Assembly: GCA_019058165.1 (NCBI GenBank)
Contig: JAHLVZ010000014.1
Coordinates: forward strand, 1-43,227
Reading direction: 5' to 3'
DNA from: Candidatus Heimdallarchaeota archaeon
GTDB lineage: Archaea > Asgardarchaeota > Heimdallarchaeia > JABLTI01
Length of the DNA stretch: 43,227 nucleotides
Shown here: piece by piece, positions 4,801-22,523 of the stretch
Layout: every line of letters begins with the position of its first letter
Position numbering within the stretch: position 1 is the stretch's first letter
Notes under the pieces: generated by a model
What the model was told of the DNA's origin: nothing
Databases searched by the model: none
The model's input: only the letters and a program-made list of their open reading frames with translations
Program-made: the position numbers and the translations under genes

Positions 4801-4877
4801 GGGCCGTTAGCTCAGCTTGGTAGAGCATCAGGCTCATAACCTGAGTGTCACTGGTTCAAATCCGGTACGGCCCACCA
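4801..4877 (+). tRNA. tRNA-Met (CAU)
   Basis: Complete cloverleaf. Acceptor GGGCCGT pairs with ACGGCCC; D-arm GCTC...GAGC; anticodon stem TCAGG/CCTGA with loop CTCATAA (anticodon CAT); T-arm ACTGG-TTCAAAT-CCGGT; discriminator A and encoded CCA at 4875-4877. The anticodon could also belong to tRNA-Ile2 (lysidine/agmatidine-modified), but the stem fits elongator Met. It marks the left edge of the tRNA-tail cassette array, and a 31-nt copy of its 3' end recurs at 14922-14952. Confidence 0.95.
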
Positions 4878-4972
4878 ATTCTAATTTTTAATTAACTAAA
4901 TTCCATTCGATAACTTATTTTAAACTGTTTTAAATAGTACTTTCGATGTTATTAATTGTGGAGTTATTAATT

Positions 4973-5821
4973 TTGAGACAAATAAAAACATTAGATGATT
5001 TGAAATGGTTAATAGAAACAAAAGTGAAAGAAAACCTCTATTTAGAATATAAAAGAGAAATTACAAGTAAAAAATTAACTAAAACAGTTTCTGCATTTGC
5101 TAATAGTAATGGTGGACAATTAATAATTGGTATCGATGAAGAAAATGATATTGCTAAGGAAATAATTTGGATTGAAGAAAATAATTATCGTCAAACATTG
5201 GATAGTTGGATTATCCAGAAAATGGATCCGTCTATTAGCATTTTTCACATTGAACGAATAAATAATCCAAATAATCAAAGACAATCAGTGTTTGTAATTT
5301 CTATCAATAAAAGTAAAAATTCACCTCATATGGCAGAAGATAAAAAATATTACAAAAGAAGTGAAACTCAATCAATAGCTATGATGGATTTTGAAGTTAA
5401 AGAAGCAATCTTCAGAAGTGGATTATTAGCTGCTTTTTTTCAAGAATTAAAAGATAACAAAGAGCTATTAGAGCATTTTAAATCCGTAATTGGTGAACTA
5501 AAACACAAATATCCTGATACTCCTGCTGATAAAACCTGGGAAATGCATCCTATAATTTATCCTTTCAAAATTGAATCTTGGAGAGCAATTTTGCATTCAG
5601 GTTTAATATCTTCATTTGGTGAAGAAACTTCTGAATTAATTGAATTATATAATTTATTATTAAGAGCTAACCATCTTATTGATTACTTGAAATACGGTTT
5701 TAGAAGAGTATCTACTTTTGAAAAACCTCAAGGTGGTTATATATTAAGCCATATTGAAGGATTAATTCTCGTTGATATTTATCCCAAAATGAAAAAGATT
5801 ATTGATTTATATGAAATCTAA
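4973..5821 (+). CDS. Schlafen AlbA_2 domain protein
   Basis: 282 residues. N-terminal AlbA_2 (Schlafen-type putative DNA-binding) domain: LEYKRE near 24, AFANSNGGQLIIGIDE near 41-56, and the closing YYKRSETQSIAMMDFE. The remaining ~120 residues are helical and unrecognised. Members of this family are found as regulators and in defence systems, with nucleic-acid binding or tRNA/rRNA cleavage in Schlafens. The start is TTG 4973, with GGAG about 9 bp upstream; ATG 4946 is in frame but lacks such a site. It is the first cassette after tRNA-Met and the only plus-strand gene in the left half of the array. Confidence 0.75.
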   Translation: MRQIKTLDDLKWLIETKVKENLYLEYKREITSKKLTKTVSAFANSNGGQLIIGIDEENDIAKEIIWIEENNYRQTLDSWIIQKMDPSISIFHIERINNPNNQRQSVFVISINKSKNSPHMAEDKKYYKRSETQSIAMMDFEVKEAIFRSGLLAAFFQELKDNKELLEHFKSVIGELKHKYPDTPADKTWEMHPIIYPFKIESWRAILHSGLISSFGEETSELIELYNLLLRANHLIDYLKYGFRRVSTFEKPQGGYILSHIEGLILVDIYPKMKKIIDLYEI

Positions 5822-5906
5822 ATGTGTCTAATTCCAATCTTACATTTTTTTATTCATTTTCTGTTAGATGTATTAACCTAAGGGTTATAATTCACATTTC
5901 TTCGAA

Positions 5907-5929
5907 TTCAAATCGCGCTGGGCCCACCA
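5907..5929 (+). repeat. tRNA-tail repeat copy 1
   Basis: T-loop through CCA matches the consensus (TTCAAATCGCGC, TGGGCCC, ACCA); the T-stem 5' strand is replaced by unrelated bases. The stop codon and last six codons of the minus-strand PIN gene lie inside it. Confidence 0.85.
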
Positions 5930-6987
5930 TTCTTCTTACTTTTCTTATATTTACTTGATTCGGCAGTTAATTGCTTTTCTAGATCAATCATTTGATTTAA
6001 TGCTAATGTGACATTGTCAATTAGAACCATACTATTTGTTAATAGTTCTTCTGCACACCATTTACCTGTAATTTTAAGGAGAGGTTTAATAAATTCGATG
6101 ATTTTCTTAATCTTTTGAATGTAATTATTCATTTGCTTCTTAATTGCATTAAAGATTAACTCTCTACTGTCTTCCCATATCATCAAAGTGACAAATAGAA
6201 TACCAAGAATAAGTTTCCATTCATTAGGTAATGCAGAAATAAAATCATAGCCCATCTTTAAAATTCTGACAATTTTATCAATTAATATTATTAGGAAAAC
6301 TAATAATCCACCAATGATTAATGCTCCCAATTCAAATGTTAAAATACCTAATAGGGGTATGCTTGTGGCGAGTACTATAAAAGAAGCTGATCCTTGTTGA
6401 TAAATACTAACTATTTCACAAGCTTCCTTTGTACTTTTCCATGATTTAACACTGTCAAGACTCAGTATATCCTTATCTGTCGTTATTATTGCATGTTTGC
6501 CTAATTTCAAGAAAAGTGCTACATACTCTACATCGTCTTTATCCCTTTTAGCTATCAAAACTTCTGCTTTTTGGTAGGCTAAATCATTTTCTAAATTTTG
6601 ATATGAAATTTTGGAAAGAAACTTTGAAGCTATAACTTCTATTTCTGTGATATCTTTCTCACAATATTCTGCAATGCTTACAATGTGTTTACTAATTTCA
6701 TTCTTTAATTTATTAGGTGCTACACCTGAGAAGAATGGTGATTCAAGTAAATCCAATAGAAATGAATGATTATATTTTACATAAGCTCTAATATGCTTGT
6801 TCAATATACTTGCATCAATAATGACTTGTAATGATATGTCCTCCTCCATTTCCAAAATATTGTTTTCAAAAAACTCCTTAACTTGTTCCATAATTTCTGG
6901 ATCTATATGTTGTACTATTTCCTTAATTATACTTTTTCTATTGTCAAACTTCTTTCTTATTCGTTCCCAATCCTTTTCGTTAAACAT
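5908..6987 (-). CDS. Membrane-anchored PIN-domain protein
   Basis: 359 residues. PIN-like nuclease domain over ~50-195: first acidic residue D58 (VIIDASILN), E97, D151/D152 (KDDVEYVALFLKLGKHA) and D171/D173 (ITTDKDI), the spacing expected for four metal-binding acids. Hydrophobic segments at ~202-238 and ~258-271 follow, then an amphipathic helical tail. PIN domains are RNases, often toxins; the membrane anchor is unusual and suggests coupling to membrane damage or a sensor (inference). The last six residues, GGPSAI, and the TGA stop are encoded by the reverse strand of the tRNA-tail repeat. The gene has its own 84-bp leader before the next repeat. Confidence 0.7.
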   Translation of the reverse strand: MFNEKDWERIRKKFDNRKSIIKEIVQHIDPEIMEQVKEFFENNILEMEEDISLQVIIDASILNKHIRAYVKYNHSFLLDLLESPFFSGVAPNKLKNEISKHIVSIAEYCEKDITEIEVIASKFLSKISYQNLENDLAYQKAEVLIAKRDKDDVEYVALFLKLGKHAIITTDKDILSLDSVKSWKSTKEACEIVSIYQQGSASFIVLATSIPLLGILTFELGALIIGGLLVFLIILIDKIVRILKMGYDFISALPNEWKLILGILFVTLMIWEDSRELIFNAIKKQMNNYIQKIKKIIEFIKPLLKITGKWCAEELLTNSMVLIDNVTLALNQMIDLEKQLTAESSKYKKSKKNGGPSAI

Positions 6988-7070
6988 TTGAATACAAATC
7001 CATATTTCCTAATCTCCAATATCAATTTGAACAAAAAAACTTTTCCAGCTTTATTTTTTAGTTCAAAAAA

Positions 7071-7106
7071 CTGCTGGTCACGTGTCCCAATCATGTTGGA
7101 ACACCA
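7071..7106 (+). repeat. tRNA-tail repeat copy 2 (degraded)
   Basis: ACTGCTGGTC is intact. The T-stem has changed to ACGTG...CATGT but still pairs, while the T-loop and acceptor strand are altered and one base is missing before ACCA. It lies at the expected boundary between two cassettes. Confidence 0.7.
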
Positions 7107-7435
7107 ACATTTAATTTCTATCATCAATTAATGATTTTTAACTAAATGATCTAACATATTTTTGATATTCCATCATATAGATAATTTAATTTCTTTATTG
7201 ATATTTTCAAAGATGATCCCCTATTGTTAAATTTTTCATTTAATGAATCTGGTTCAATAAGCATTAATGCAAATGATAATTCTACCATGTTATTTTTTAG
7301 GAAAAATACTAATTTCAAAATTATTGAATATTGGTTTAATTTAATATGGAAATAAATCATATGCTGATACTTATATATATGTTATATTTTGTTGAAAATT
7401 AATTATTTTCCCAAAAAACCTGAAATTAGGAAACT
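7107..7435. other. AT-rich gap between degraded repeat and next gene
   Basis: 329 bp with no convincing gene. A 69-codon minus-strand reading frame at 7151-7360 shows no family features. This is the only minus-strand cassette whose gene ends several hundred bases from its repeat, so the gap may hold the remains of a lost small gene. Confidence 0.35.
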
Positions 7436-8710
7436 CTATTTATTCCATTGATGATGATCAATATAATCTATAGCTTCTCTTGTGTTTAACTTTTTATTGC
7501 GATTACCTACTCTAATTATAAAATTGTTATATATGTAGACAGGTTCAGTAGATTTGCATATAGTGATTATACAAACATCCTTACCTAATATATTTTCAAA
7601 GTTAATTTCAATGAATTTTTTATATTTTATCCCAATTTTTTCTTCAATAACTCTAATTAATCGAAGTTTAAAACCATCTCTATTTTGTTGATTTTTACCA
7701 AATGTTAAATAATCATTTTCAATTCCGATTATTTCTTTTGAATTATTCATTCCTATAAGGATGATACCGCCTTCAGTATTCAAGAAAGCAACAATTGCAT
7801 TAATCACTTTAAGTTCTGATTCTTTTGATTCCTTTTTTATTTTTGAATTATAACGAAAATAAGTTTTATATTCAAATCTTTGTCCTTCTTCTTTCTTTAT
7901 TAATTCAAGTATACTTTTCTTCAAATCAAATTGAAATGTTTCTTTCTTTTTTGGTAATCTTTGATAAATGCTCCTGTATTTGGCAAGATTAAGAAAATGC
8001 ATCATCCCTTTTATTTCCATCTCTTCAAGTATTTTTGCTCCTAATCCATCTCTTTTCTCCTCCAATAACATAAGACCAAGAGCAAATTCAAACATATAAT
8101 TATCGTTTTTCTTATCTTGGATAGCAAGTATTACATCATTTAGAACCTGCTTAGCGTTCATCTCTCCTAAAGCAAATGCTGCTCCAGAGCGTATTCTACC
8201 ATCTTCATCATTCAACATTAGATTTTTTAGTGTATGGATTTCTTCTCTTGCTAATATCCAACCAATTACTCTTATAGCCCAATATCTGATTTCATTATCC
8301 TTACTATTTTTCAATATAGATACTAATTTAGGTTTTGCTCCTTTAGCTTTATCACCAAAATCTCCTAATGTTTGCATAATAGATCTTTTTACATCTATAT
8401 TTTCTTCATTTTCTAATACTTGAATCAACTCTGGTATTACTTTTTCATTGTGAATTGAAGCAAGAGATCTAGCACATGTAGAACGCAACATTGGTTCTTC
8501 TTTGGGATTTTTTAGTATTTCAATTAAATATGGAACAGCATCATATGCCTTAGGATCACATCTCCCTAAATAGTCTGCAGCTTGACATCGATTTTTACCC
8601 CAAAGGAATCTCTGCCACCAACGCTTAGCAGTCAGAGTTTTTATTAATCCCTCTACAGTATATCCTTTTATATGGATGCTATCACCAAGTACAACCCTCA
8701 TTTGTATCAC
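7436..8710 (-). CDS. HEAT-repeat protein with C-terminal Schlafen AlbA_2 domain
   Basis: 424 residues. Residues ~40-245 are HEAT/PBS-lyase-type helical repeats (e.g. VPYLIEILKNP, VIPELIQVLEN, RYWAIRVIGWI, IRSGAAFALGEM). Residues ~275-420 form an AlbA_2 domain: QRFEYKTYF at 277-285, AIVAFLNTEGGIILIG at 305-320, and a C-terminal strand IIRVGNR. The combination suggests a protein-interaction scaffold joined to a nucleic-acid-acting domain; AlbA_2 proteins occur in regulation and defence. GTG 8708-8710 or ATG 8699-8701 could be the start. It has its own 73-bp leader before the next repeat. It is a second, distinct AlbA_2 protein in the same array. Confidence 0.75.
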   Translation of the reverse strand: MIQMRVVLGDSIHIKGYTVEGLIKTLTAKRWWQRFLWGKNRCQAADYLGRCDPKAYDAVPYLIEILKNPKEEPMLRSTCARSLASIHNEKVIPELIQVLENEENIDVKRSIMQTLGDFGDKAKGAKPKLVSILKNSKDNEIRYWAIRVIGWILAREEIHTLKNLMLNDEDGRIRSGAAFALGEMNAKQVLNDVILAIQDKKNDNYMFEFALGLMLLEEKRDGLGAKILEEMEIKGMMHFLNLAKYRSIYQRLPKKKETFQFDLKKSILELIKKEEGQRFEYKTYFRYNSKIKKESKESELKVINAIVAFLNTEGGIILIGMNNSKEIIGIENDYLTFGKNQQNRDGFKLRLIRVIEEKIGIKYKKFIEINFENILGKDVCIITICKSTEPVYIYNNFIIRVGNRNKKLNTREAIDYIDHHQWNK

Positions 8711-8782
8711 TTCATTACATACCTATTTCTTATGTTAAGATTTCCAACATATTCATTCATATTAGCTATTATATGTATTTAT

Positions 8783-8819
8783 TTGTTGGTCGCGTGTTCA
8801 AATCGCGCCGAGCCCACCA
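8783..8819 (+). repeat. tRNA-tail repeat copy 3
   Basis: Nearly full-length: TTGTTGGTCGCGTG, T-loop TTCAAAT, CGCGC, then CGAGCCC and ACCA. T-stem pairing is intact. The neighbouring minus-strand gene stops 1 bp after CCA. Confidence 0.85.
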
Positions 8820-8820: not shown

Positions 8821-10272
8821 CTATTTTCTGAACCATCTTTTTCTTTTTTGTCGTTTTCTTATAATGATTGGAATAATTACTAATATTATTACAAGTGGTG
8901 CTTTAGGTAATGATATAATTGGCGTTGGAAAGGTAATTTGCATATTCTCAGGGGCAACTACAACTAAAGGTAAGTATATTTCCCCATTGTTATTACATTT
9001 CCAAATAAATACTTGAAAACCATTGTTTCCGTCATTCACATACCACAATAGGATGAAATTTGACTCCATATCTGAGATTATTCTAGGCTTAAATATAGCA
9101 GGTCCATAGAAATAGCCTTCATTTTTTACGAATCGTATAATCAGTTTTGCTTCAGTGTAGTTTTCATTTTGTGTTGGATGATAGTACGAAAAAAATAATT
9201 CTGCATCTGCAAATAATTCCCAGTTAATACTTACTGTTGCAGCATGTTTTGTATCCAAAGTATATGATGACCCTTTGAAATAATTAGCATTTAATACTTC
9301 GTACTCTCCTAAAGTTCCATCTGTATTTAATGCATATGATTCATAGTAATCTGTACCTGTTGTAAGACTATAGCGGGACCAGTAAAAGAATGTACTATTG
9401 CCTATTCTCTGTAATCGGGCATAATGAATTACTTCATCTGATATGTCAAACAGAATATTTCTATTTAGTTCTACAAATGATGATTCTTCAATTGAGTACT
9501 TAATACTGTAAAAGTTGTCCTCACCTTCACAGACTACTATTACATCTTCATTATTGTCTACAACTAGATCTTGTACTTCCCCTGTTTCTACAGGCACTTT
9601 TATTGAAGCCCTTATGTCTCCTGTTTTATTCAAAAGATAATATGAATTATCTTTAAGTATTAAATGAATTAGATTTTCTTCATCCATTAGTGCTTTTATA
9701 ATTATTTTTCCTGCACTTGAGCTATTTCCACCATGAGTATATGTGTGAATACTTTTTGGTTCTATGATGGTTTGGAAGCTTGCATTCATCAACATATAAT
9801 AAATATCTCCTTGCTGAGGGTAATCGTATCCTAACATATACCAAAAAATATGTAAATTATCAGTTGAATCTTTAAGCATCCATGGTTGTGATAATTCGTA
9901 TTCTTCTTCTGTTAGCATGCTTCCATTAACAACAATTGTTGTGTTTATTATTCGGCTTAGATTGGTGTCATACTTTGCTATTTTTAATAGGCTTTTCTCT
10001 TCTCTCCATAAAATACCAATATCACCTTCATTAAAACAAATAGTTGTTGGATCATGTACTTCTCCAGTTTCTCCTGTAATTAAGTAATTATTTGTATTCA
10101 GAATGGTCACTTTGTCTGCATGGTCTAATTTGTCGACATCGCTACTATAGAAGTTCTCAGGTGTTTTGACAACTACTCCTTTAGTGTAATAGCTAATCTG
10201 GATAAAAAATAATGATAATACAATTAGTACTATACAAAAGCAGTACTTATTTGATTTGAAATGGCCATGCAT
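8821..10272 (-). CDS. Secreted, membrane-anchored beta-rich (propeller-like) protein
   Basis: 483 residues. An N-terminal hydrophobic segment at ~10-28 (FCIVLIVLSLFFIQISYY) acts as signal or anchor; the C-terminal segment PLVIILVIIPIII is followed by a very basic tail. Between them, repeated beta-strand units of ~50 residues (e.g. ICFNEGDIGILWREE, NLHIFWYMLGYD, STFFYWSRYS, SNFILLWYVNDG) resemble an extracellular beta-propeller of the BNR/sialidase-like type. No catalytic motif is recognised. Its TAG stop lies 1 bp from the tRNA-tail repeat and it has a 110-bp leader of its own. Confidence 0.65.
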   Translation of the reverse strand: MHGHFKSNKYCFCIVLIVLSLFFIQISYYTKGVVVKTPENFYSSDVDKLDHADKVTILNTNNYLITGETGEVHDPTTICFNEGDIGILWREEKSLLKIAKYDTNLSRIINTTIVVNGSMLTEEEYELSQPWMLKDSTDNLHIFWYMLGYDYPQQGDIYYMLMNASFQTIIEPKSIHTYTHGGNSSSAGKIIIKALMDEENLIHLILKDNSYYLLNKTGDIRASIKVPVETGEVQDLVVDNNEDVIVVCEGEDNFYSIKYSIEESSFVELNRNILFDISDEVIHYARLQRIGNSTFFYWSRYSLTTGTDYYESYALNTDGTLGEYEVLNANYFKGSSYTLDTKHAATVSINWELFADAELFFSYYHPTQNENYTEAKLIIRFVKNEGYFYGPAIFKPRIISDMESNFILLWYVNDGNNGFQVFIWKCNNNGEIYLPLVVVAPENMQITFPTPIISLPKAPLVIILVIIPIIIRKRQKRKRWFRK

Positions 10273-10382: not shown

Positions 10383-10406
10383 GTTCAAATCGCGCTGGGC
10401 CCACCA
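10383..10406 (+). repeat. tRNA-tail repeat copy 4
   Basis: Exact match from GTTCAAATCGCGC through TGGGCCCACCA, followed by the CTTTTCTTTT tail; the variable loop and T-stem 5' strand are partly lost. The methyltransferase stop codon lies within the T-loop. Confidence 0.85.
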
Positions 10407-11041
10407 CTTTTCTTTTCTTCCTTTTGCACTATGTAATCTATTGTGATACTTTGGCATTGTTTATCATTGTGAATGTAATCAAAGCTTGTTATTCCTTTGT
10501 GAAGTAGTTTTAATCCAGTAAAGAGTTCTTCCGCTTCATCATTGTTATAAAAGGAATGAAAAGTATCTTCAAATCCATATTTACCTGCTTGAGAGATATC
10601 TAGCATTTCATTATCGCCAATATCTTTTCCCTCTTTTATGAAAGCTGAATCAGTTGATTGAAAATTAATGTACAGTAAACCTCCTTTCTTTAGCACTCGA
10701 AGCATTTCTATGACAGCTTTTTTAGTACCTGCTTTCGTAAGATGCTCAATCGTGTTATAAGAATATGCAAAACTAAATGACTCATCTTCATATGGCAATT
10801 CTCGTATATCTGCTTTAATTATTTTATAATCAAGGTTATTTTCTTCTTCATATTTTTGTGCTCTCTCTATCTGAGTATCAGAAATTTCCACTCCGTGTGC
10901 TTCATACCCTCGTTCACTAAAAACTGCTATTTTAGGTTCGGATCCTCCAGCACCACAATCCAATATCTTCTTCTCGAATTCACTCTTTTCTGTGAATTCA
11001 AAAAATCTCTCAATTTCCTGTGGAATAGTAAAAGTAACCAT
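10385..11041 (-). CDS. Class I SAM-dependent methyltransferase, cassette copy A
   Basis: 218 residues. Rossmann methyltransferase: motif I ILDCGAGGSEPKIA (~26-39), acidic motif II region AHGVEIS (~48-54), KADIRELPYEDESFSFAYSYNTIEHL (motif III/IV region), then MLRVLKKGGLLYINF. Substrate unknown; the small size and lack of a specific C-terminal domain fit Methyltransf_11/25. The last residues, GGPSAI, and the stop come from the tRNA-tail repeat. A close paralogue with a near-identical upstream region lies at 16322-16948, so the whole cassette was duplicated. Confidence 0.85.
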   Translation of the reverse strand: MVTFTIPQEIERFFEFTEKSEFEKKILDCGAGGSEPKIAVFSERGYEAHGVEISDTQIERAQKYEEENNLDYKIIKADIRELPYEDESFSFAYSYNTIEHLTKAGTKKAVIEMLRVLKKGGLLYINFQSTDSAFIKEGKDIGDNEMLDISQAGKYGFEDTFHSFYNNDEAEELFTGLKLLHKGITSFDYIHNDKQCQSITIDYIVQKEEKKSGGPSAI

Positions 11042-11140: not shown

Positions 11141-11168
11141 ATGTGTTCAAATCGCGCTTGGCCCACCA
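11141..11168 (+). repeat. tRNA-tail repeat copy 5
   Basis: ATGTGTTCAAATCGCGC, TTGGCCC and ACCA, then CTTTTTCTTC. The variable loop and outer T-stem are degraded. It bounds the upstream side of the methyltransferase copy A cassette. Confidence 0.8.
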
Positions 11169-11219: not shown

Positions 11220-14200
11220 CTATGAATCTTTAATTAAACATTCTAAAGAATTAGGGTTAGCTAGAACAAAATGAACTAAATCTGCTGCTGCTTTAGCTGC
11301 TAATAATTGAAAACTATCATTTTTTTCAAAAGCCCAATCACAAATACCTTTGACAATTATCCACTCAATATCATTTGATTTAGCTGCTTCATAAAATCCC
11401 GCTCCTTCCATTTCACCACCAATTGCTTGTTTATATTTATTGATTAATTCTTGGAGAAAATCTGCATCATTAATCACTTTTTCTCCTGAAAGTAATGCAC
11501 CTATTATGATTTTTGAGTAAATATTTTCTGCGAGTTCAAATTCCCAATTTGTAACATTTTTAAAACGATCAAGTAGTATTGCGCTGCTTTCTGGAATAGC
11601 TCCACGTGGAATAGCTACCTTACTTTTCTTCTCTATTTCATATTGAATTATTTTTTCTGACACTAAAACATCCCCCATTTTCTGATCTTTTTCTTTAATA
11701 CCAAAAGCTATTCCGCACATAATTGCTACCTTTGGTTTCCAGAAATCAAATGCTGCTTTCATTTTAAGAATAGTTTTAATTGAACCCGTTCCAGTCATAA
11801 TTAATGCTACATTATAAGTTCCATATTTGCCTAAAAAATAAGTTTCAGATTGAATAGAACCTCTTAGAATCTTATTCATTCCTTCAATTGGTCTCATTAA
11901 TTTTAATACTGAATCCCTTTCTATTTGAGTAGCAGTTAATAAAATGATATTTACTCTATCAACTAATGATTCAAGGATTATTTGATTGCAATCATCAATC
12001 TGAGGTAGCAATTTTTCATAATTTGAATCCATTATTTGGTAACTTTCTATCATTAATTTTACTAATTGATTTTTATCGATGTTGATAATATCTTCAATTT
12101 TATCTAGATGTATTTTTGGTGAATCTACCATCTTTTTATGATAAAGCTTTAAATAATTATTATCCAAATCAAGTTGTAGAATACCTAATTTCCCTTTATT
12201 TTTCTCGTAATCCATTATAAAATCGAGCTCAGGTTTTTTCCAATTCATATTCAGAAAATTTGTGGTGATTAAAACTAAACCAAAATCAAAATTAATAAAT
12301 GCATTTGAAATTTTTTCAATCAAATCATCATCAATTTCTAAAATTAATACCTCGAAATTTTCGATCAAATCGTCTTTTAATTTACTAATTACATCATAAT
12401 CATGTTTAGAACATATTAAAATAATCCTCAATGAATTGTCATTTATATTGCTCTCTAAAGTAATCTTCTCTGCTTTTTCAGGTAATATTATCTTCCTTTC
12501 TTTATCGATAGTTAAATTATTTCTAAATCCATTTCTCTCTATTTTCGATTCATTTTTTTTAAAAACTTCTTTAATGTTTTTTTTTCTTTTTTTTTCTTTT
12601 CTTTCATCAATTGGTGTGACTTTTGGACTAAGATCTCGATTTTCTTCATCTGTTAAATCTGTAAATATGGTTTCTATTTTTTCTTTTAGAGTATTTTTAA
12701 ATTGTCCATTAATATAAACTGTTATTTCGAATTTATTACTAAATAATTCCTTAGGATCATCTCGAATTAATATATAACAATATGTAATCTTTTTTGGATA
12801 AGAAAAGATTCCACCATTTTTTGCTACTTTATCCATTAGAAGATTTAAATCTAAAAACTTAGAAATCCATTTTTCAGGTTTGGAGAAATCTTTCATGTTA
12901 ATTTTTTTCTTAATTAGTATAACGTCTTTTTTGAAGTCCAAATTATATTCCTTTGAATATTCTAGAGCTTCACTTTGTTTTAGATCATTTTTTAAGAAAT
13001 CAATTATTATTCTTTGATTTTGATGTTCAATGCAAGTTTTATCCTCAATTAACATATCCATTGCAATTATACTATATTCTATTTCTTCTGATTCTAATTC
13101 AGATAAATAATTCTCCCAATCTATCCATCCCTCTTCTGAATTAATTCTTTTCAAAATATTATTCTTTGCTTCAGAGATTTTTCTCATATTTAGATAAACT
13201 GAATATGTGGTACCTCTTTTCTTTAACTCGATTCTACCTTGAATTTGTAAGCCTTTTAGTGTATAAACAAGATAATTTCTATCAATCTTTAGATCTGATT
13301 GCTTAATTTCATGTAATAATTCTTCTAATGAAATAACCTCCCTGCCTTCATTTTGATAATTTTCAATTAGTAGTAATAGCGAATTTGTTTCCTTTGTATT
13401 GATCTGTGTTTTTGGTTTGTAATTATTTAACAATTCCAAAACTTTTTTTTCTACACTTTCGATATTTATTATTTCTTTTAGATCATCACTTTTTTTTGTT
13501 TTTATTGGTTCTATTTTTTTGTCGCTATTTTTCTTATTATAATTGTTTAATAAATCTTCAACATCGGATGGGTGATCACCATGTGTCTGAATATATAATA
13601 TATTATTCTGATAATTATATTCATCAGTAAGCTTTTCGTTAAGTTCAGTTGCAATATCAAAAGTTATAGAATCTCTTTGACTAAATACAATAATAATTAA
13701 ATCTGAATCTATAATATGAGGTAAATGAGCAGGAATATAACTTTTCTGTCCACCAAAGTCATGAAATATAATCCTCACATTTTTATTTTCTTCTGGGATC
13801 CAATCCCAAACATTTTTCATTTTAGTCGATTTTAATGTTTCATCTAGTTTTCCTGTAGTAATTCGGCCACATATAGTTGATTTGCCTGTTGATGTATGTC
13901 CTATAACTCCTACTTTATAATAGTTTTCAGTTTGATAAAGGGTAGTATCTGGTTCCATTATTTCTAATTCAAACAATCCATTTCCAGTTATCAGTAGAAG
14001 CTGTTTATCCCTCTCTAAAATATATCGACCAAGATTTATTGGATATCTATAGATTCCTGTAGTTTTTATGTCTAGAATTATAACCTCATTTTCTGTTACA
14101 GCAAATAACTTTTCTTGATTACTAGAAAATGTTAAATATTTGCCTTGTCCTGACCCTGATAAAAATCTCAATACCATTACCCAATCTTCAATACCATTTT

Positions 14201-14921: not shown

Positions 14922-14952
14922 GTCACTGGTTCAAATCCGGTACGGTCCACCA
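14922..14952 (+). repeat. tRNA-Met 3'-end copy (att-like), repeat copy 6
   Basis: 31 nt equal to tRNA-Met positions 4847-4877 (variable loop to CCA) with one C-to-T change at 14946. Similarity continues ~13 nt past CCA (AATTCTAATTTTTA at the tRNA, AAATTCTCATTTTA here). The two copies are direct repeats ~10 kb apart, the pattern left by integration into a tRNA gene. Confidence 0.85.
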
Positions 14953-14965: not shown

Positions 14966-15002
14966 CTGCTGGTCGCGTGTTCAATTCGCGCTGGGCCCAC
15001 CA
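14966..15002 (+). repeat. tRNA-tail repeat copy 7
   Basis: Full-length consensus with a single T-loop change (TTCAATT). It lies only 13 bp after the tRNA-Met tail copy, giving a double site. The adjacent minus-strand gene stops 2 bp after CCA. Confidence 0.9.
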
Positions 15003-15004: not shown

Positions 15005-16123
15005 TTATCTTTCCTTTTTTTTGTAAATCTTAACCAAAGTTCCAATAATTGAATTCACAAGAAGGAATGAAAAACTTAAACCAAGGATGTTCAAATTCCC
15101 AGAAGGTTCCAGATTTTCTAATTGAAACAAATACCAAGAATCTTCAAAATCTACTAATCCAATAATATTGCCTTTTTTAGCTAAATTCATATAGGTTTTT
15201 CCTTCTTCATAATATTGCGCTATTTCTTGGGGATTTGATGCTTCTGTTATGTTTATTATTTGTAAACCTCTTGTTCCTGCTAAAAAGAGATAGTTATCCT
15301 CAATTAATGGTGAAAAGGCTTCAAATCCTTCCAATTCTCCTAATAACACTGGATCTAATGGGTTGCTATTGTTATAGATTCGTAAACCTTCATTATCAGG
15401 TCTTATAATTGTAGCATACATTAGATCATCTTGGAATAAAATATTCCCCGCCATCCAATCAAACACATGCAATTCAGTGATATTTTCAGGGTCACTAACA
15501 TTTAAGAGAAGATCACCACTTTGACTATAGTCTGCAATATATACCATGTCATCTTGGAAGCACTCGATATGTGACATTATGTTTCCATTTGAATAATTTC
15601 CGAGACTAATTGCGGTATAATTATCAAAAAATTCAAACACTTCCAACCCACCTTCAGCCATTGCACAATAAATTTTGTTTTCCCAAAGATCTATCCTGAA
15701 ATGTTCACCTGATTCACTCTGACAACCACCAATTACTGTTAACTCAGAGGGATTAGAAATATTAACAAATTTGATCCCAGAATGCATAAAATCAACTAAT
15801 GCAATGTTTTCTTTAATAATGAAATCATGACCACCTTTGACTATAGGATCAACAGTATTACTATAAGCAAGGGTATCAAGTAAGACTGGTTCTTCAGGAT
15901 TTTCTATATCATAACTCATAAATCCTTTTTCGAAATCAAAAACGAAACAATAATTATCAACAATTTCAATAAAATCTGTTCTTCCTGAGGTGGAAATTTC
16001 ACACAATTTTTTAAATTGAATATTATCACCATATGTGGCGAAAGATTCAGCGAATTGAATATTGAAAAAACATAAAGAAAATGCTAATAGAAGTGTTAGT
16101 GAATCTAATTTTTTAATTCTCAT
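15005..16123 (-). CDS. LVIVD-repeat surface beta-propeller protein
   Basis: 372 residues. Signal peptide at ~1-28, then seven or so LVIVD/YVTN-like repeats (e.g. ENIALVDFMHSGIKFVNISNPSEL, NYLFLAGTRGLQIINITEASNP) and a C-terminal transmembrane helix (~345-363) with a KKKER cytoplasmic tail. LVIVD proteins are extracellular, cell-surface propellers of unknown ligand, abundant in archaea. Two paralogues lie at 28543-29649 and 29699-30769, outside the array. The TAA stop lies 2 bp from the repeat; a 150-bp leader separates the start from the next repeat. Confidence 0.85.
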   Translation of the reverse strand: MRIKKLDSLTLLLAFSLCFFNIQFAESFATYGDNIQFKKLCEISTSGRTDFIEIVDNYCFVFDFEKGFMSYDIENPEEPVLLDTLAYSNTVDPIVKGGHDFIIKENIALVDFMHSGIKFVNISNPSELTVIGGCQSESGEHFRIDLWENKIYCAMAEGGLEVFEFFDNYTAISLGNYSNGNIMSHIECFQDDMVYIADYSQSGDLLLNVSDPENITELHVFDWMAGNILFQDDLMYATIIRPDNEGLRIYNNSNPLDPVLLGELEGFEAFSPLIEDNYLFLAGTRGLQIINITEASNPQEIAQYYEEGKTYMNLAKKGNIIGLVDFEDSWYLFQLENLEPSGNLNILGLSFSFLLVNSIIGTLVKIYKKKER

Positions 16124-16272: not shown

Positions 16273-16309
16273 CTGCTGGTTGCGTGTTCCAATAGCGCTG
16301 GGCCCACCA
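16273..16309 (+). repeat. tRNA-tail repeat copy 8
   Basis: Full-length, with changes TTGCGTG, T-loop TTCCAAT and AGCGC; acceptor strand TGGGCCC and ACCA intact, followed by CTTCTTTTTT. Confidence 0.9.
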
Positions 16310-16321: not shown

Positions 16322-16948
16322 TCATTTCTTTTGTAGTATGTAATCAATTGTGACACTTTGGCATTTTTCATCGTTGTGTTTATACTCGAAGCTTGATATG
16401 CCCTTATGTAATAAAAGAAGATTTTTGAAAAGCTCATCCGGCTCATCATTGTTGTAAAAGGAGTGAAAAGTATCATCAAAACCATGTTTGTCTACTTCAG
16501 AGAAATCCAACATTTCATTATCTCCTATATCATTTCCCCATTTCAATCCTGTGGAATCAGTAGATTGAAAATTGATGTATAGCAAACCACCTTTCCTAAG
16601 CACTCGTAGCATTTCTTTAATTGCCTTAATGGTTCCCGCTTTGGTAATATGCATAATAGAATGATATGAATATACAAAGCTAAAGGATTCATCTTCAAAT
16701 GGTAATTTTCGCATATCAGCTTTGACAATTTTGTAATCAAGATTATTTTCTTCTGCATATTTTTGTGCTCTCTCTATCTGAGTATCAGAAATTTCCACTC
16801 CGTGTGCTTCATACCCTCGTTCACTAAAAACTGCTATTTTAGGTTTGGATCCACCAGCACCACAATCCAATATCTTCTTCTCGAAATCACTTTTTTCAGT
16901 GAATTCAATAAATCTCTCAATTTCCTGTGGAATAGTAAAAGTAACCAT
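16322..16948 (-). CDS. Class I SAM-dependent methyltransferase, cassette copy B
   Basis: 208 residues, closely similar to the copy at 10385-11041 (identical first 15 residues and motif I ILDCGAGGS; FQSTDS, GDNEMLD and TFHSFYNNDE conserved). It ends at ILQKK with TGA 12 bp before the repeat. The SGGPSAI tail of copy A is still encoded but in another frame, so the extra tail is dispensable. The ~60 bp upstream of the ATG is nearly identical to copy A, so the promoter travelled with the gene. The substrate is unknown. Confidence 0.85.
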   Translation of the reverse strand: MVTFTIPQEIERFIEFTEKSDFEKKILDCGAGGSKPKIAVFSERGYEAHGVEISDTQIERAQKYAEENNLDYKIVKADMRKLPFEDESFSFVYSYHSIMHITKAGTIKAIKEMLRVLRKGGLLYINFQSTDSTGLKWGNDIGDNEMLDFSEVDKHGFDDTFHSFYNNDEPDELFKNLLLLHKGISSFEYKHNDEKCQSVTIDYILQKK

Positions 16949-17050
16949 AGTATTTCATCTTAGTTTTAATGTTTTTAAGTTGTTTTTTACTCTAGAAAAT
17001 GACATTTGATTTTCCAAAATAATTCATAGATATTTTCATTGTATATTCCT

Positions 17051-17077
17051 GAAACTAATCGTGTTGGGTCCCCTACT
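17051..17077 (+). repeat. tRNA-tail repeat copy 9 (strongly degraded)
   Basis: CTAATCGTGTTGGGTCCCCTACT followed by ACTTCTTTTC aligns with the consensus tail and its pyrimidine stretch. It occupies the same place relative to methyltransferase copy B as repeat 5 does to copy A, which supports common descent. Confidence 0.55.
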
Positions 17078-17145
17078 ACTTCTTTTCTTGAGAATACTTT
17101 TATTAGGAAACTAATTTGTTTATAACATCTTTCAGAGGAATTTCT

Positions 17146-18822
17146 TTGTCATCTACTACTCAAAAAAAGCTTCAAAAGATTGAACAACTATTAATTCACG
17201 GGGAATTTCAAAAAGCACTTGACGAAATTGCAGAAGGGTTGAAAACAAAGGATAACAAGAATGAAGACAAACTTGCTTTTCTCGTTCACAAAAGTGATAT
17301 TCGGAATGAATTAGGCAAGCATTTAGAAGCTTTAGAATTGGTAGATGAAGTGCTTAAGGAAAGTAAGAAGTTAGATAACAATTTAATCATAATAGATTCA
17401 TTCATACAAAAAGTAATTGCTCTCTATTATACTACTGGGGAATTTAATGAAGGTTTAAGCTATATAGAGAAAGGATTGAAGTTATTAAAGAAAACCCCCA
17501 ACATCCACCCAAAAGAGCTTGCAAAACGAAAAAGCATGTTGCTTCATTGGAATGGGTTAGTTGTTTATCAATTAGGTGATTTTGAAAAGAATAAAGAATT
17601 ATTACAAGAAAGTCTCCTCTTTGCTGAGAAAAGCGGAAACAAACGAATTATTGCTCGTTGTTTATCATTCCTTGGTTTCTTTTTAAGAGATGACGAAAAA
17701 CAAAATGAGTACTTTGATAGAGCATACAAAACGGCTGTAGAAATTGGCAATAAGCTAGAATTAGCTGCATATTGCATAACTTATGGGTATATTTTAGGTA
17801 AAAGGAGAGAATTTGATAAATCCTTCAAAACATACGAGAAAGGATTTTCTCTTATGGATGAAATAGGTTCAACATTATATTATATTGCGTATAACGATTT
17901 AGGACTTATTTATAGAGCAAATTATCAGTTAGATAAAGCATTGGAATGTTTTCAGAAATCGATGGAAGGGTTTGCAATGGGTAAACATATTACCCTAAAT
18001 CATGTTGCTTATACTTACTTCTTGAAATACGATCTTGAGAAGGCGCAAGAATACTATCTGAAATCATTGAAACTTTGCGAGGAAAAAAATGAAAGAAAAG
18101 CATTACCTAATGTACTTTTTAATCTCATTTTGATTTCTATTGAATTAAAGAACCTAAATAAAGCACAACAATATTTAGGACGACTAGAACAAATTAGCAT
18201 CGAAACTGGTTTTGAGCGAATTAATCGGTTATACCGTTATGCTTCCATCCTTCTATTAAAAACAAGCAGTGATTTTAATGATTGGGGGCAAGCAGAAGAT
18301 TTATTGGAGGAAATGCTAAAAGAAGATAATTTACCTTCAAAGTGGCGGTTAGATGTCTTATATAATCTAATAGAGATTCGTATAAAAGGGCTCCAACTCT
18401 CTCCAAGCGAAGAATCATTGAAAAAAGCACAAAAATGGTTAACTCATTTAGAAACTGAAGCTGAAGCACAACAACATCATTGGCTCCAAGCTAATGTGTA
18501 TCGGTTACAATCACAACTTGCATTAGTGGAATTAGATATCAATAGAGCAATCGAATTTTTGGATAAAGCTAATGTCATAGCTGACGAAATAGAAGTGAAA
18601 ATACTGAAGAAAGGGATAAAGGAAGACCGTGAGAAGATTGATCAACAATTTGCAATGCTGAAGAAATACCAGGAACAACAGGCTTCCATAAGTGAAAGAG
18701 TAAAAATTGTTTCTTTAGAAAGTACAGTTGATGATATAAAACAAGAAACTGTGCTTGAAGAACGAGACAAAGAAACAGGAGAAGTTATTGAGTATCGGAA
18801 ACTCTTCGCTTTGAAGATTTAA
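17146..18822 (+). CDS. TPR-repeat protein
   Basis: 558 residues. At least ten tetratricopeptide units are visible, e.g. GEFQKALDEIAEGLK, GKHLEALELVDEVLKE, GEFNEGLSYIEKGLKL, YQLDKALECFQKSMEG and DLEKAQEYYLKSLKL, ending in a charged coiled region. There is no enzymatic domain; probably a cytoplasmic scaffold. The start is TTG 17146 with GAGG seven bases upstream; an in-frame TTG at 17116 has no such site. The gene is on the plus strand, unlike the preceding cassettes, and its stop lies 4 bp before the next repeat, so its 3' end also abuts a tRNA tail. Confidence 0.8.
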   Translation: MSSTTQKKLQKIEQLLIHGEFQKALDEIAEGLKTKDNKNEDKLAFLVHKSDIRNELGKHLEALELVDEVLKESKKLDNNLIIIDSFIQKVIALYYTTGEFNEGLSYIEKGLKLLKKTPNIHPKELAKRKSMLLHWNGLVVYQLGDFEKNKELLQESLLFAEKSGNKRIIARCLSFLGFFLRDDEKQNEYFDRAYKTAVEIGNKLELAAYCITYGYILGKRREFDKSFKTYEKGFSLMDEIGSTLYYIAYNDLGLIYRANYQLDKALECFQKSMEGFAMGKHITLNHVAYTYFLKYDLEKAQEYYLKSLKLCEEKNERKALPNVLFNLILISIELKNLNKAQQYLGRLEQISIETGFERINRLYRYASILLLKTSSDFNDWGQAEDLLEEMLKEDNLPSKWRLDVLYNLIEIRIKGLQLSPSEESLKKAQKWLTHLETEAEAQQHHWLQANVYRLQSQLALVELDINRAIEFLDKANVIADEIEVKILKKGIKEDREKIDQQFAMLKKYQEQQASISERVKIVSLESTVDDIKQETVLEERDKETGEVIEYRKLFALKI

Positions 18823-18826: not shown

Positions 18827-18862
18827 TGCTGGTCGCGTGTTCAAATCGCGCTGGGCCCACCA
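18827..18862 (+). repeat. tRNA-tail repeat copy 10
   Basis: TGCTGGTCGCGTG, T-loop TTCAAAT, CGCGC, TGGGCCC, ACCA: an exact consensus match, followed by CTTTTTATTTT. Best-preserved copy together with copy 7. Confidence 0.92.
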
Positions 18863-19093: not shown

Positions 19094-19252
19094 ATGAGTA
19101 GATACGGTAATTATGACAGACCCCCAAGAGAAATGCACAAGGTAACTTGCGCAGATTGCGGAAACGAAGCAGAAGTTCCATTCAAACCAGATGGTACACG
19201 ACCTGTATACTGTCAAGATTGTTACAAAAAACGAAAACCAAGTAGATATTAG
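19094..19252 (+). CDS. Zinc-ribbon microprotein, CxxC-x17-CxxC type
   Basis: 52 residues: MSRYGNYDRPPREMHKVTC start, CADCG knuckle at 19-23, VPFKPDG, RPVYCQDCY at 36-44, basic end KKRKPSRY. The two CxxC pairs 17 residues apart make a zinc ribbon of a family common in archaea and candidate phyla; proposed roles are RNA/ribosome or protein interaction, unproven. The paralogue at 36417-36575 differs at only a few positions. It forms the smallest cassette in the array (about 0.5 kb). Confidence 0.85.
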   Translation: MSRYGNYDRPPREMHKVTCADCGNEAEVPFKPDGTRPVYCQDCYKKRKPSRY

Positions 19253-19286
19253 AATAAAAATATCTATGAATCATTCCTAGATGAAT

Positions 19287-19351: not shown

Positions 19352-19385
19352 AAGATCGCATGTTCTAACCGCGCTGGGTCCATCA
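19352..19385 (+). repeat. tRNA-tail repeat copy 11 (diverged)
   Basis: AAGATCGCATG, T-loop TTCTAAC, CGCGC, TGGGTCC, ATCA. Consensus positions are recognisable; the T-stem has one mismatch and CCA is mutated to TCA. Confidence 0.65.
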
Positions 19386-19487: not shown

Positions 19488-20219
19488 TTGCTTTTAGAAA
19501 ATATGACATCAAGTGAAGTAAAAGAATATCTAAAGAAAAATACTGTAATAATCATACCAGTCGGTGCTACAGAACAACATGGTCCTGCAAATCCTTTGGG
19601 GACTGATTTTTTCACAGCACAATATCTTGCCAGAGAAGCAAGTAAAAAAGCTAAGATAATCTGCGCTCCAACAATTCCTATAGGTATATCTGAGTCTCAT
19701 AAACAATTTGCTGGTTCCTTGTGGGTAAGACCTGAGGTGTATAAAGAATTAATGAGACAGTATATCCAAAGTGTTCTTCATCATGGTTTTACCAAAATAA
19801 TAATAATAAATGGTCATGGTGGAAATAGCGCTACTTTGAAACAAATAGCTCATGAAATTTTTTATGATAAAGAGATTCGAGTTGCTACCCCAGATGCTTT
19901 AGAATTCTTTGATCTAAAATTAGTTTCCGAACTTTTTCCTGGTTTTATCTTCATGCATGCTGAAGCAATTGAAACATCCATAAATCTCGCTATTAATCCA
20001 TCTTTAGTAAAAGAAGAAGAATTAACAAATGTTGCTAAACCACCGGAAGTTTGGGGATTACATATTAATAATATTTCATTACCAGCTCATATTACTGAAT
20101 TTGCTCCAGATGGAATTGTGGGTTCATTAGAGAATATTAGTAAAGAATCAGGTAAGACAATCCTAAAGTCAGCAATTGACAATCTAGTAAAATTCATAGA
20201 AGATTTTCGTAACTTTTAA
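19488..20219 (+). CDS. Creatininase-family amidohydrolase
   Basis: 243 residues, the normal family length. Metal-site motifs: ATEQHG (E29, H31), GTD (D40), NGHGGN (H110) and HAEAIETS (~157-164). The family includes creatinine amidohydrolase, MftE-like peptidases and riboflavin-pathway FAPy deformylase; the NGHGGN form fits the archaeal/MftE branch, so the true substrate is open. The start is TTG 19488, giving the family-typical LLENMTSSEV; ATG 19503 is possible. Alone in its cassette between repeats 11 and 12. Confidence 0.85.
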   Translation: MLLENMTSSEVKEYLKKNTVIIIPVGATEQHGPANPLGTDFFTAQYLAREASKKAKIICAPTIPIGISESHKQFAGSLWVRPEVYKELMRQYIQSVLHHGFTKIIIINGHGGNSATLKQIAHEIFYDKEIRVATPDALEFFDLKLVSELFPGFIFMHAEAIETSINLAINPSLVKEEELTNVAKPPEVWGLHINNISLPAHITEFAPDGIVGSLENISKESGKTILKSAIDNLVKFIEDFRNF

Positions 20220-20260
20220 TATCAGACTAGAAAAACCTAGCAATCTTATCGTTCAATGAT

Positions 20261-20286
20261 TTCTTTAAATCGTGCTGTATCCACCA
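20261..20286 (+). repeat. tRNA-tail repeat copy 12 (diverged)
   Basis: TTTAAATCGTGC, TGTATCC, ACCA, CTTC. The T-stem 5' strand is lost and the acceptor strand altered; recognised by position and the AAATCG-GCTG-CCACCAC frame. Confidence 0.6.
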
Positions 20287-20416
20287 CTTCTCTAAATTTA
20301 TAGTGAACGATTTTTAAATTACATTTTACTAAATCAATTTGGAAAACACTTACATCAGATTTTTGGGTTGGTTTTTATAATAAAACAAATAATACAAATC
20401 ACTTGCAGGAAAAGTT

Positions 20417-22450
20417 GTGTTATATTTGTCAATTAAGAAAAAAACCATTGTATTTGTGTTCATGATAATAGGAATAATTTTGACTATTAATACAGTTTCT
20501 AATAATGGTCAATTATCACAGAAGAATTCATTTAATAAGTATGATACTTTAAAAATAAATGATTTATTTAATGATTATGAGAATTCATTACTTCCTTCCG
20601 ATATTTCAAATCAAACTGAATTAGCGATTTTTCTTGATGAATACATTTCAGATCAATTAGATCAATACAATATTGTTGGAATGACAATTTCATTTGTTAA
20701 AGATAATGAAATATTTTTTGCTAAAGGATATGGAAATAGGACATTAGCACCTGTCGCTAAACCAGTTATCGCTAATCAAACATTGTTTAGAATAGGTTCT
20801 ATTTCTAAGACTTTTACAGCTGTAGCAGTTCTACAATTAGTGGAAGATGGCATTCTTGATCTTGATACAGATGTCAATAGTTATTTGACTGCCTTTAAAA
20901 TACCTGATACCTATTCCGACCCAATTACATTGAGACATCTTTTAACGCATACTGCTGGTTTTGAAGAAAAGGCTTATCCTTCAATATTCTCTTCGCCATT
21001 AGGTATACCACCTCTGGAAGATTTTGTTATTGAGATACTTCCGGATAGAGTGCATTCTCCAGGTGTTATTACTTCATACTCAAATTATGGATTTACATTA
21101 GCAGGATACATCGTTCAAGAAATGTCTGGAAAGTTATTTGAACAGTATATTGAGGATGAAATATTTATTCCTTTAGGACAAAACAGCAGTACATTTAGAG
21201 AACCATTGCCTGCTAATTTGAGCTTGAATATGTCAACTGGTTACAATGAATTTGGTCAAGTTGGTTATTTTGAATATTTATCTGTGCCACCTGCTGGTTC
21301 ATGCAGCTCTACTGCAACAGATATGGCTAAATTTATGATTGCTTTGTTAGATAATGGCTATTATAATGGTACACAGATTTTATTGAATGAAACTGTGCAA
21401 ATGATGCAAGAAGAGCATTTCACTACTCATCCTAATCTTCCTGGAGCAAATCTAGGGTTATATGAGATGGATACACACAATGAACACATAATTGGACATG
21501 GAGGAGATACAGTCTTCTTCCATAGTTTGATGGCATTATTTCCTGATGATAATTTTGGTTTCTTCATATCTTATAATAGTAGAGGAGGGTCTATTGCTCG
21601 TGATGAATTCTTCGATGATTTCATGGATCGATTCTATCCCTATATAAATGAGATTAATCCAATGAATGGCTTTGATAAAGGATTAAGGCAATTTAATGGT
21701 CTTTATTGTACTACAAGAAGGTTTTACTCGGATAAAACAATTCACCCATTAAATTATAGACCTTATGAAATTATTGAATATGATTATTTAGCTGATGCTT
21801 TTAGAATTGTAACCAATAATGGATATCTCGAAATGTTAGGCTTGCAATTTGTTCAAATAGAACCTGATTATTTTGTAGAAACAACTGGTCAATACGATTA
21901 TAAAATTGCTTTTATAAGAAATGAGAATGGACGTATTACGAACTTTTATTCAACATTCACTATACCCCTCGTTTCCTTTGAACGGCTTCACCCATTATAC
22001 GTTACTCCTGAAGGATTGAATCTAATTCTATTTCTCGTCATTTTAATATCTTTTATTTTCTCAATTATTTGGGGTATTCTAGCTCTTATCCGAGTAAAAA
22101 AGCGTAAAGATAAGATTGCTATATTTCCTACAATTGCTAAATGGCTAAATTTTGGATTGGTAATTTTCTCTATTGTGCCTTTTATCTTCATAATTACAAA
22201 AATTTATTCCACAGTTCTACTTGCACAAGATCCCTATGATGGTTTAAACAGCTTAATTATTTTTCCAATCATTGCTTTGATACTAATAGCTGGAATGACA
22301 ATTTTTAGCATTCTATCTTGGTTTGGAATAGGTAATATTGACAAAAAACCATATTGGAAATTGTGGGAAAGGATTTCGTATTCAGCTTTAACAATACTAA
22401 GCTATTCACTCATTGCATTTTTTGTTCTTTGGAATATCTTTGGCTACTAA
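20417..22450 (+). CDS. Beta-lactamase-fold serine hydrolase with membrane domain
   Basis: 677 residues. N-terminal membrane anchor (~8-25), then a class C beta-lactamase/PBP4*-like domain (~65-400): SISK (S128-K131) nucleophile/base pair, SYSNYG as the Y-x-N motif, and HGGDT as the third motif. The C-terminal third (~530-677) has four transmembrane segments. Related proteins are D-aminopeptidases, esterases or peptidases; the active domain should be outside the cell. The GTG start at 20417 has AGGA ~8 bp upstream. Last cassette of the array; its stop lies ~50 bp before repeat 13. Confidence 0.85.
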   Translation: MLYLSIKKKTIVFVFMIIGIILTINTVSNNGQLSQKNSFNKYDTLKINDLFNDYENSLLPSDISNQTELAIFLDEYISDQLDQYNIVGMTISFVKDNEIFFAKGYGNRTLAPVAKPVIANQTLFRIGSISKTFTAVAVLQLVEDGILDLDTDVNSYLTAFKIPDTYSDPITLRHLLTHTAGFEEKAYPSIFSSPLGIPPLEDFVIEILPDRVHSPGVITSYSNYGFTLAGYIVQEMSGKLFEQYIEDEIFIPLGQNSSTFREPLPANLSLNMSTGYNEFGQVGYFEYLSVPPAGSCSSTATDMAKFMIALLDNGYYNGTQILLNETVQMMQEEHFTTHPNLPGANLGLYEMDTHNEHIIGHGGDTVFFHSLMALFPDDNFGFFISYNSRGGSIARDEFFDDFMDRFYPYINEINPMNGFDKGLRQFNGLYCTTRRFYSDKTIHPLNYRPYEIIEYDYLADAFRIVTNNGYLEMLGLQFVQIEPDYFVETTGQYDYKIAFIRNENGRITNFYSTFTIPLVSFERLHPLYVTPEGLNLILFLVILISFIFSIIWGILALIRVKKRKDKIAIFPTIAKWLNFGLVIFSIVPFIFIITKIYSTVLLAQDPYDGLNSLIIFPIIALILIAGMTIFSILSWFGIGNIDKKPYWKLWERISYSALTILSYSLIAFFVLWNIFGY

Positions 22451-22499
22451 CATTCAGTCTTGTTTTTGTTTTTTAATGCTTAGCTTAAATGGATTACTG

Positions 22500-22523
22500 T
22501 ATCAAATCGCGCTGGGCCCACCA
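22500..22523 (+). repeat. tRNA-tail repeat copy 13 (right end of array)
   Basis: ATCAAATCGCGC, TGGGCCC and ACCA, then CTTCTTTT: intact from the T-loop on. No further copy is seen to the right, so it marks the array's right border. Confidence 0.8.

Follow-up and report, generated by a model that had tools for sequence, protein, structure and literature searches.

The window analyzed here, a 43,227-nt stretch that constitutes the entire contig C89 of the Candidatus Heimdallarchaeota metagenome-assembled genome (MAG) G000 (3.36 Mb, 253 contigs, 86% complete), contains, at positions 4,801–22,523, a complete tRNA-Met(CAT) gene followed by repeated tRNA 3' tails, all of which point in a single direction. 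We think it probable that cassettes, mostly of one gene each, form a tRNA-anchored array at this locus, in which the tails are the joints and which was likely built and reshuffled by a site-specific tyrosine recombinase acting in trans.

The 23-mer TTCAAATCGCGCTGGGCCCACCA occurs eight times in the window at no more than three mismatches, exclusively on the plus strand, and not once in 100 dinucleotide shuffles of the window at the same threshold. A tail profile built on 35 copies identified 12 window sites at 9.5 bits or more (4855, 5907, 8797, 10385, 11146, 14930, 14980, 16287, 18840, 19363, 20264, and 22501), and no match on the minus strand at E ≤ 10. Three weaker matches were obtained: (i) 7070 (8.0 bits) and (ii) 17056 (5.7 bits), which are intergenic; and (iii) 11524 (5.0 bits), which is probably due to chance, as it is intragenic. 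Since the same junction has better tails in the sister species G003 and G005, we accepted 17056 as a site, giving 13 sites and 12 intervals, one of just 50 bp. This bears out the thirteen same-direction copies and twelve units described in an initial annotation of this DNA. However, while 12 of the copies are indeed tRNA tails, the first belongs to a complete tRNA-Met(CAT), and the units, described there as single-gene cassettes, are mostly but not always so, the interval 5907–8797 having two genes. The tails fall into two classes, Met-type at 4855 and 14930 and Ile-type at the remaining window sites. Furthermore, the array does not stop at 22,523, as had been proposed: homologs of relatives' units are recognizable beyond this point, to approximately 37,143, in a part of the window (22,524–37,143) where the profile detects no tail. 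The layout is as follows:

4801–4877, plus strand: complete tRNA-Met(CAT), intronless; head of the array
5907–5929, plus strand: Ile-type tail; its 5' part resembles, by eye, a worn-down T-arm insert of the sort found in one tail each of the G004 and G008 arrays
8797–8819, plus strand: Ile-type tail
10384–10406, plus strand: Ile-type tail
11146–11168, plus strand: Ile-type tail
14928–14952, plus strand: Met-type tail, one mismatch to the tRNA-Met end
14980–15002, plus strand: Ile-type tail, 50 bp past the Met-type tail
16287–16309, plus strand: Ile-type tail
17050–17075, plus strand: degenerate Ile-type tail (5.7 bits) at the methyltransferase/TPR cassette boundary
18840–18862, plus strand: Ile-type tail
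19363–19385, plus strand: Ile-type tail, four mismatches
20264–20286, plus strand: degenerate Ile-type tail, five mismatches
22501–22523, plus strand: Ile-type tail, the final detectable one
22524–37143, no strand assigned: distal array without detectable tails, its units known by homology to relatives' cassettes
37143–40358, plus strand: downstream flank, common to G004 and G008

Both the upstream and the downstream flanks of the array are shared by G000, G008, and G004, and in G004, too, an intact tRNA stands at the array end. Between the flanks lie approximately 32.3 kb in G000, 22.0 kb in G004 (a locus joined from contigs with three exact overlaps of 141 bp), and 8.3 kb in G008; the final 14.6 kb, 5.1 kb, and 1.9 kb of these arrays, respectively, are without a site. 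Positions 25681–28529 of the window are 88% identical to a G004 unit that sits between two tails, and other distal window units were found in relatives in a different order. In G006, the tRNA-Met has an anticodon-loop intron, no tail was found in the 18 kb fetched, and a homolog of the window gene 39610–40473 follows this tRNA after approximately 120 bp. We refer to the G006 locus as tail-free rather than strictly empty, because a further 4.2 kb, including a homolog of the zinc-finger cassette, precedes the counterpart of the other flank gene.

Ten array loci were compared, using matches of at least 150 bp. Orientation is kept in all 80 matches (73 between genomes, 7 within one), and 82 of 149 internal match ends fall no more than 60 nt from a site in one partner or both (mean 15.8 and maximum 52 in 2000 circular shifts), with 30 ends located at a site in both partners (mean 0.5, maximum 7). 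A precise absence was identified in G003, which has an LVIVD gene followed directly by a TPR gene where G000 has LVIVD, methyltransferase, and TPR genes, the break lying within the tail; cassette presence and absence with junctions inside the repeat, which the initial annotation had suggested looking for, is thus seen. The outcomes that it had named as speaking against it, a gene order fixed in relatives and a lack of junction variation, did not come about, as cassettes recur in other orders and variation occurs inside the repeat.

A methyltransferase unit is found with differing neighbors in G000 (twice), G002, G003, G005, and G008. The cassette shows 95.0% identity for G000 and G008 and 97.7% for G000 and G003. 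The three other loci compared are much less alike: identity between G000 and G008 is 68.6% for the candidate recombinase gene discussed below and 64.6% for the downstream flank, and a gene beside tRNA-Ile is 75.2% identical between G000 and G008 and 79.0% between G000 and G003. Mis-binning is no explanation, because the G000 and G008 copies sit on contigs that include both flanks. There are also older copies, the second G000 methyltransferase and the G002 copy being 75–83% identical to the rest. As several of these genes recur in similar rows of sister species, in other orders and in one clear case at near-identical sequence, the tails are likely swap points through which genes are passed around. 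Of what the initial annotation had suggested, cassette-like units, a single direction, junction variation inside the repeat, and a tail that acts as a recombination site rather than a tRNA are supported.

Junctions were analyzed with 33 tail copies, from which 17 right-hand and 12 left-hand pairs were hand-picked among the matches and assessed with 5000 permutations, coordinates being counted from the first T-loop base (the start of the tail). Pairs that share the right-hand cassette and differ on the left agree more than background at +12 to +20 (0.949 versus 0.762; 5 of 5000 permutations), with no excess upstream of +8 and no clear result at +8 to +12 and +20 to +23. Pairs that share the left-hand cassette agree more than background at −20 to −9 (0.614 versus 0.350; 2 of 5000) and at −9 to 0 (0.759 versus 0.559; 165 of 5000), while 0 to +8 is not significant (618 of 5000) and no excess is seen after +8. 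Exchange thus appears to be bracketed between 0 and +12, from the start of the T-loop to the 3' T-stem. These junctions bear directly on the possibility that the tails are passive scars, short direct repeats at which units are shuffled and deleted by slippage or by homologous recombination. Direct repeats can delete or duplicate units with orientation preserved, incoming array DNA could recombine via the cassettes themselves, and 67 of the 149 match ends lie off recognized sites, all of which fits such a process. However, the sites share only approximately 35 nt, often with several differences, exchange is bracketed between 0 and +12, a single cassette occurs at 94–98% identity between different neighbors, and one and the same cassette follows a site that is Met-type in G008 and Ile-type in G000; we therefore give passive repeat recombination little chance.

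While the Met-type tails match the anchoring tRNA-Met, the majority of tails are Ile-type, and we looked for their source in the tRNA set of G000, sampled via pattern and model searches, and in sister species. Over the 23-nt core, the nearest tRNA found in the G000 assembly has three positions that depart from the Ile-type tail, and the ten Ile-type tails compared with its own tRNA-Ile (contig C174) differ from it at 6 to 14 of 32 positions. The tRNA-Ile genes of G003 and G004 are closer, differing at 2 of 23 positions and fitting better over 32 nt: tails 8797, 14980, 16287, and 18840 have two to four mismatches to the spliced G004 tRNA-Ile, and the other six have at least six mismatches to each of the four tRNAs tried. 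Copies unrelated to any tRNA of the genome, a further outcome that the initial annotation had counted against itself, were thus encountered in part, in that the closest fit is in sister species.

ARAGORN made no call for the G000 tRNA-Ile, the G003 and G004 tRNA-Ile, or the G008 tRNA-Met. These were read by eye, the tRNA-Ile genes by their likeness to the tRNA-Ile called in G006, G007, and G008, and the tRNA-Met with the tRNA-Met of the window and G006 as guides. Read in this way, the 5' T-stem strand of G003 and G004 tRNA-Ile is separated from the T-loop by a 33-nt insert, and G008 tRNA-Met has inserts in the T-loop and in the anticodon loop; a similar T-arm insert is found in the G004 and G008 arrays, in a single tail each. 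We take these inserts to be introns. Those in the T-loop region of the sister-species tRNA-Ile and tRNA-Met lie in, or at the edge of, the exchange interval. The G000 tRNA-Ile that ARAGORN misses (locus L052, 17648–17787, by eye) has apparent D-arm and anticodon-loop inserts. On contig C65 of G006 (locus L032, 1501–1560), a tail-like match without an ARAGORN tRNA has an upstream side that resembles the G003/G004 T-arm insert, and possibly represents a further tRNA interrupted by a T-arm intron.

The tails could conceivably have been copied from spliced tRNA in an RNA-mediated process, given that the T-arm insert of the G003/G004 tRNA-Ile genes and of the single tails in the G004 and G008 arrays is missing from most tail copies. 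Sister species, however, have tRNA-Ile genes with insert-free T-arms, the cassette genes run both with and against the tails, and the breaks occur inside the tail, so that we regard an RNA origin as very improbable.

Consistent with the initial annotation, no integrase was found in the array: a Pfam search of 38 open reading frames (ORFs) of the window (37 of the 77 listed and one small one) identified no recombinase. The window does contain an intact anchoring tRNA, the tRNA-Met, which the initial annotation had counted among the tails. Across the genus, seven of the nine genomes have PF00589 matches, 19 in all, 12 of which were compared. Among these is a tyrosine recombinase of approximately 352 amino acid residues in G000, G002, G004, G005, G007 (where it is cut by the contig end), and G008, with a mutual identity of 62–91%, that is encoded at another locus, far from the array. 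At E up to 1e-20 it was found in six of 56 relatives, and at E up to 1e-40 in six of 227 genomes of the Asgard phylum, all carriers belonging to this genus; a search of 5.8 billion proteins returned 27 relatives at 63–93% identity, followed by a fall to 25–29%. The surroundings of the gene are partly common between species (tblastx, among the matches listed), and the stretches fetched around it contain no tail at up to six mismatches and no ARAGORN tRNA.

The protein scores below the cut-offs for archaeal XerA (NF040815, 119 versus 220 bits) and integron integrase (TIGR02249, 36 versus 265 bits). Its nucleophile stretch is intact, while box II has a tyrosine in place of the usual histidine of HxxR. 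Its AlphaFold model is weak (predicted template modeling score 0.51; predicted local distance difference test below 50 for residues 297–337 at the catalytic end), and the nearest PDB match to this model, XerA, confirms only the superfamily. The protein was not found in G006, tail-free at this locus; a serine resolvase is present in one of the nine genomes. The link between recombinase and array is suggestive, and we treat the protein as a candidate only, because it was not found in tail-bearing G003.

The same cassette exchange might instead depend on enzymes of passing mobile elements, such as a second recombinase family or integrases of plasmids or viruses, the tails being scars of hitch-hikers left by serial tRNA integration. 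That second family (301–313 amino acid residues) is present in G000, G003, and G004, and hence also in G003, where the 352-residue protein was not found, and elements with tyrosine recombinases form one-site arrays in archaea and bacteria, according to excerpts of PMC6563490. In tail-bearing G002, G005, and G007, however, the 352-residue protein is the sole PF00589 match, G008 has just one other, a 525-residue frame left out of the comparison, and no Pfam recombinase is among the 38 window ORFs searched. On balance, we hold an enzyme supplied by passing elements to be rather unlikely.

The array we favor, with its recombinase acting in trans, could operate as follows. A circular cassette would carry one site, consisting of the variable loop and 5' T-stem, T-loop, 3' T-stem, acceptor, and CCA. 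This site would recombine, within its T-loop, with one in the array, so that the cassette would be inserted in one fixed orientation and have a tail on each side; the reverse reaction would release it. As the enzyme we predict the 352-residue tyrosine recombinase, whose gene lies elsewhere in the genome. Insertion would take place mostly near the tRNA-Met end, so that the array would grow at its head, and this, we propose, is why its distal end lacks detectable sites. The inserts in G003 and G004 tRNA-Ile and G008 tRNA-Met, located at the exchange interval, would shield those genes. The cassette circles, the identity of the enzyme, and the direction of growth are conjectures of this model.

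Several observations weigh against this proposal. With regard to the enzyme, the 352-residue protein was found neither in tail-bearing G003 (84% complete) nor in G001 (64% complete), which has cassette homologs and no tail on that contig; it may instead be a Xer-like enzyme of the genus; and further tyrosine recombinases are present in G000, G003, G004, and G008. With regard to the sites, the exchange point is bracketed rather than seen, since neither group of pairs exceeds background at 0 to +12, nor are right-hand pairs above background at +20 to +23, and G001 and G006 carry tail-like matches elsewhere in their genomes. With regard to the cassettes, the matches overlap and hence are not independent, the 67 of 149 ends mentioned above lie away from a recognizable site, and G006 has a tail-less homolog of the zinc-finger cassette 2.5 kb behind its tRNA-Met. 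Finally, the content of the head can be old, because a PIN cassette adjoins it in both G000 and G008 (84% identity).

The cassette genes of the window up to 22,523 are:

4946–5821, plus strand: Schlafen AlbA_2 gene
5908–6987, minus strand: PIN_2-domain gene, in G008 likewise after the first Ile-type tail
7436–8710, minus strand: gene with HEAT repeats and AlbA_2
8821–10272, minus strand: gene without a Pfam match
10385–11041, minus strand: methyltransferase, 95–98% identical to G003, G005, and G008
11220–14864, minus strand: gene with WD40, Roc GTPase, and C-terminal phosphorylase (PNP) domains
15005–16123, minus strand: LVIVD-repeat gene
16322–16948, minus strand: second methyltransferase, missing at the matching G003 junction
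17116–18822, plus strand: TPR-protein gene
19094–19252, plus strand: treble-clef zinc finger gene, tail-bounded in G000, G003, and G004
19488–20219, plus strand: creatininase-family gene
20417–22450, plus strand: beta-lactamase-fold protein gene

The stop codons of the minus-strand genes 5908–6987 and 10385–11041 fall within a tail, which therefore encodes the C-terminus of these reverse-strand cassette proteins. The 1214-residue product of 11220–14864 (minus strand) has a weak TIR match besides its WD40, Roc, and PNP domains and resembles a STAND/Roco-type defense protein. Although domain names of the defense type are thus present, the defense cargo of the initial annotation is not established beyond such names, because PADLOC matches were few and mostly generic, in three of nine proteins. 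In the distal array, a compact cluster (25680–28120, minus strand) comprises three DGC-domain genes, one fused to GcvH, and a ferredoxin gene, and is approximately 88% identical to G004 and 85% to G005.

Tails are not confined to this locus. The exact 23-nt tail, with one position free, was found in named genomes on six contigs of five Asgard/Heimdallarchaeota MAGs (a search from which the window's own genome was possibly excluded), and in none of the viral contigs searched. Weaker tail-like matches occur in all nine genomes of the genus, including G001 and G006; many of these are tRNA genes, and not all were classified. Repeated tail-like copies lie near or behind tRNA-Val(GAC), tRNA-Val(CAC), tRNA-Ala(GGC)-like, and tRNA-Ile genes of the genus. 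G008 has a second cluster of five same-direction tRNA-Val(GAC)-type tails near a contig end (locus L103, 7537–12798), with genes among them that look PIN-like by eye. In G004, an intron-bearing tRNA-Ala(GGC) and, behind it, two Ala-like tails lie within 1.4 kb (locus L112, 10045–11469), and in G019, which belongs to a different family of the class, single extra tails lie downstream of tRNA-Leu and tRNA-Pro (locus L104, 5185 and 10071, minus strand).

If the proposal is true, archaea of the Heimdall group, placed closest to eukaryotes by PMC8813620, possess a means of gene capture whose site is defined, whose exchange point is bracketed, and whose enzyme can be tested. Likewise, the old proposal that tRNA introns guard against integration becomes directly testable, because the inserts of two tRNA genes fall at the exchange point. 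It is possible, though we put this forward tentatively, that the genus has its own analog of the integron, comprising a chromosomal tyrosine recombinase, cassette sites in the T-loop of tails no longer tied to any tRNA, cassettes that pass between species, and some tRNA genes protected by introns exactly at the exchange point.

As for integrons proper, the array shares with them, and with clusters of attC sites lacking integron integrases (CALINs), a recombinase-free row of directional, exchangeable cassettes common to several species, and in this respect it resembles an integron in the way it works without being one. In contrast to these systems, it has no attC, no IntI, and no attI beside an integrase, and its genes lie both ways. 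The attC core motif was found within the site's own 50 nt at none of 11 window sites, and an attC-like motif pair in none of 22 strand-windows (0.18 expected by chance). Classical attC features are absent, as first noted, while the integron-like label itself fails: we rejected integron identity, as there is no IntI, no attC pair, and no attI-like site in the stretches fetched around the candidate recombinase gene, which reaches only the 36 of 265 bits given above. Integrons are reported from Asgard MAGs in excerpts of PMC9668308, and differ in site and enzyme from this array; that the tails overlap true attC sites, as in a CALIN, has in our estimation virtually no chance of being correct.

From tycheposons, as their original description reportedly has them, the array differs in that no element-borne recombinase is among the 38 window ORFs and that its units comprise one or a few genes. 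The two have in common cargo beside tRNA genes and a tyrosine recombinase, with a met-tRNA border in Methylophilaceae, as seen in parts of PMC10872708. The aloposons and HeimV elements of Heimdallarchaeum, described in the excerpted PMC8813620, likewise integrate at tRNA genes in this group of archaea; they carry giant or viral genes, unlike the single-gene rows here. The tRNA-Thr of Caldiarchaeum, discussed in an excerpt of PMC3293823 along with the idea of Randau and Soell, is similar in having a tRNA intron at an integration site; there, one element carries the intron, whereas here the inserts lie at the bracketed exchange interval and a cassette array stands beside them.

Bacteria are known to have long cassette islands anchored at a tRNA. 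In the additive flexible genomic islands of Actinomarinales, Alteromonas, and Methylophilaceae, as far as excerpts of three sources describe them (PMC7771536, PMC4119200, PMC10872708), a conserved tRNA anchors the cassettes, insertions leave behind direct repeats of the tRNA end, and cassettes are present or absent at one locus. The array likewise has an intact tRNA at one end, direct repeats of a tRNA 3' end, and cassettes that are present or absent at the same locus in relatives. We found no archaeal array of this kind in print in the open-licence PubMed Central literature. The array of the window differs from these islands in being archaeal, in that most of its tails are those of a tRNA (Ile) other than the anchor (Met), and in having mostly single genes, a bracketed exchange interval, and a separate, genus-only recombinase. 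The bacterial additive islands are the nearest known kind, and the exchange point of the array presented here is unusually well resolved.

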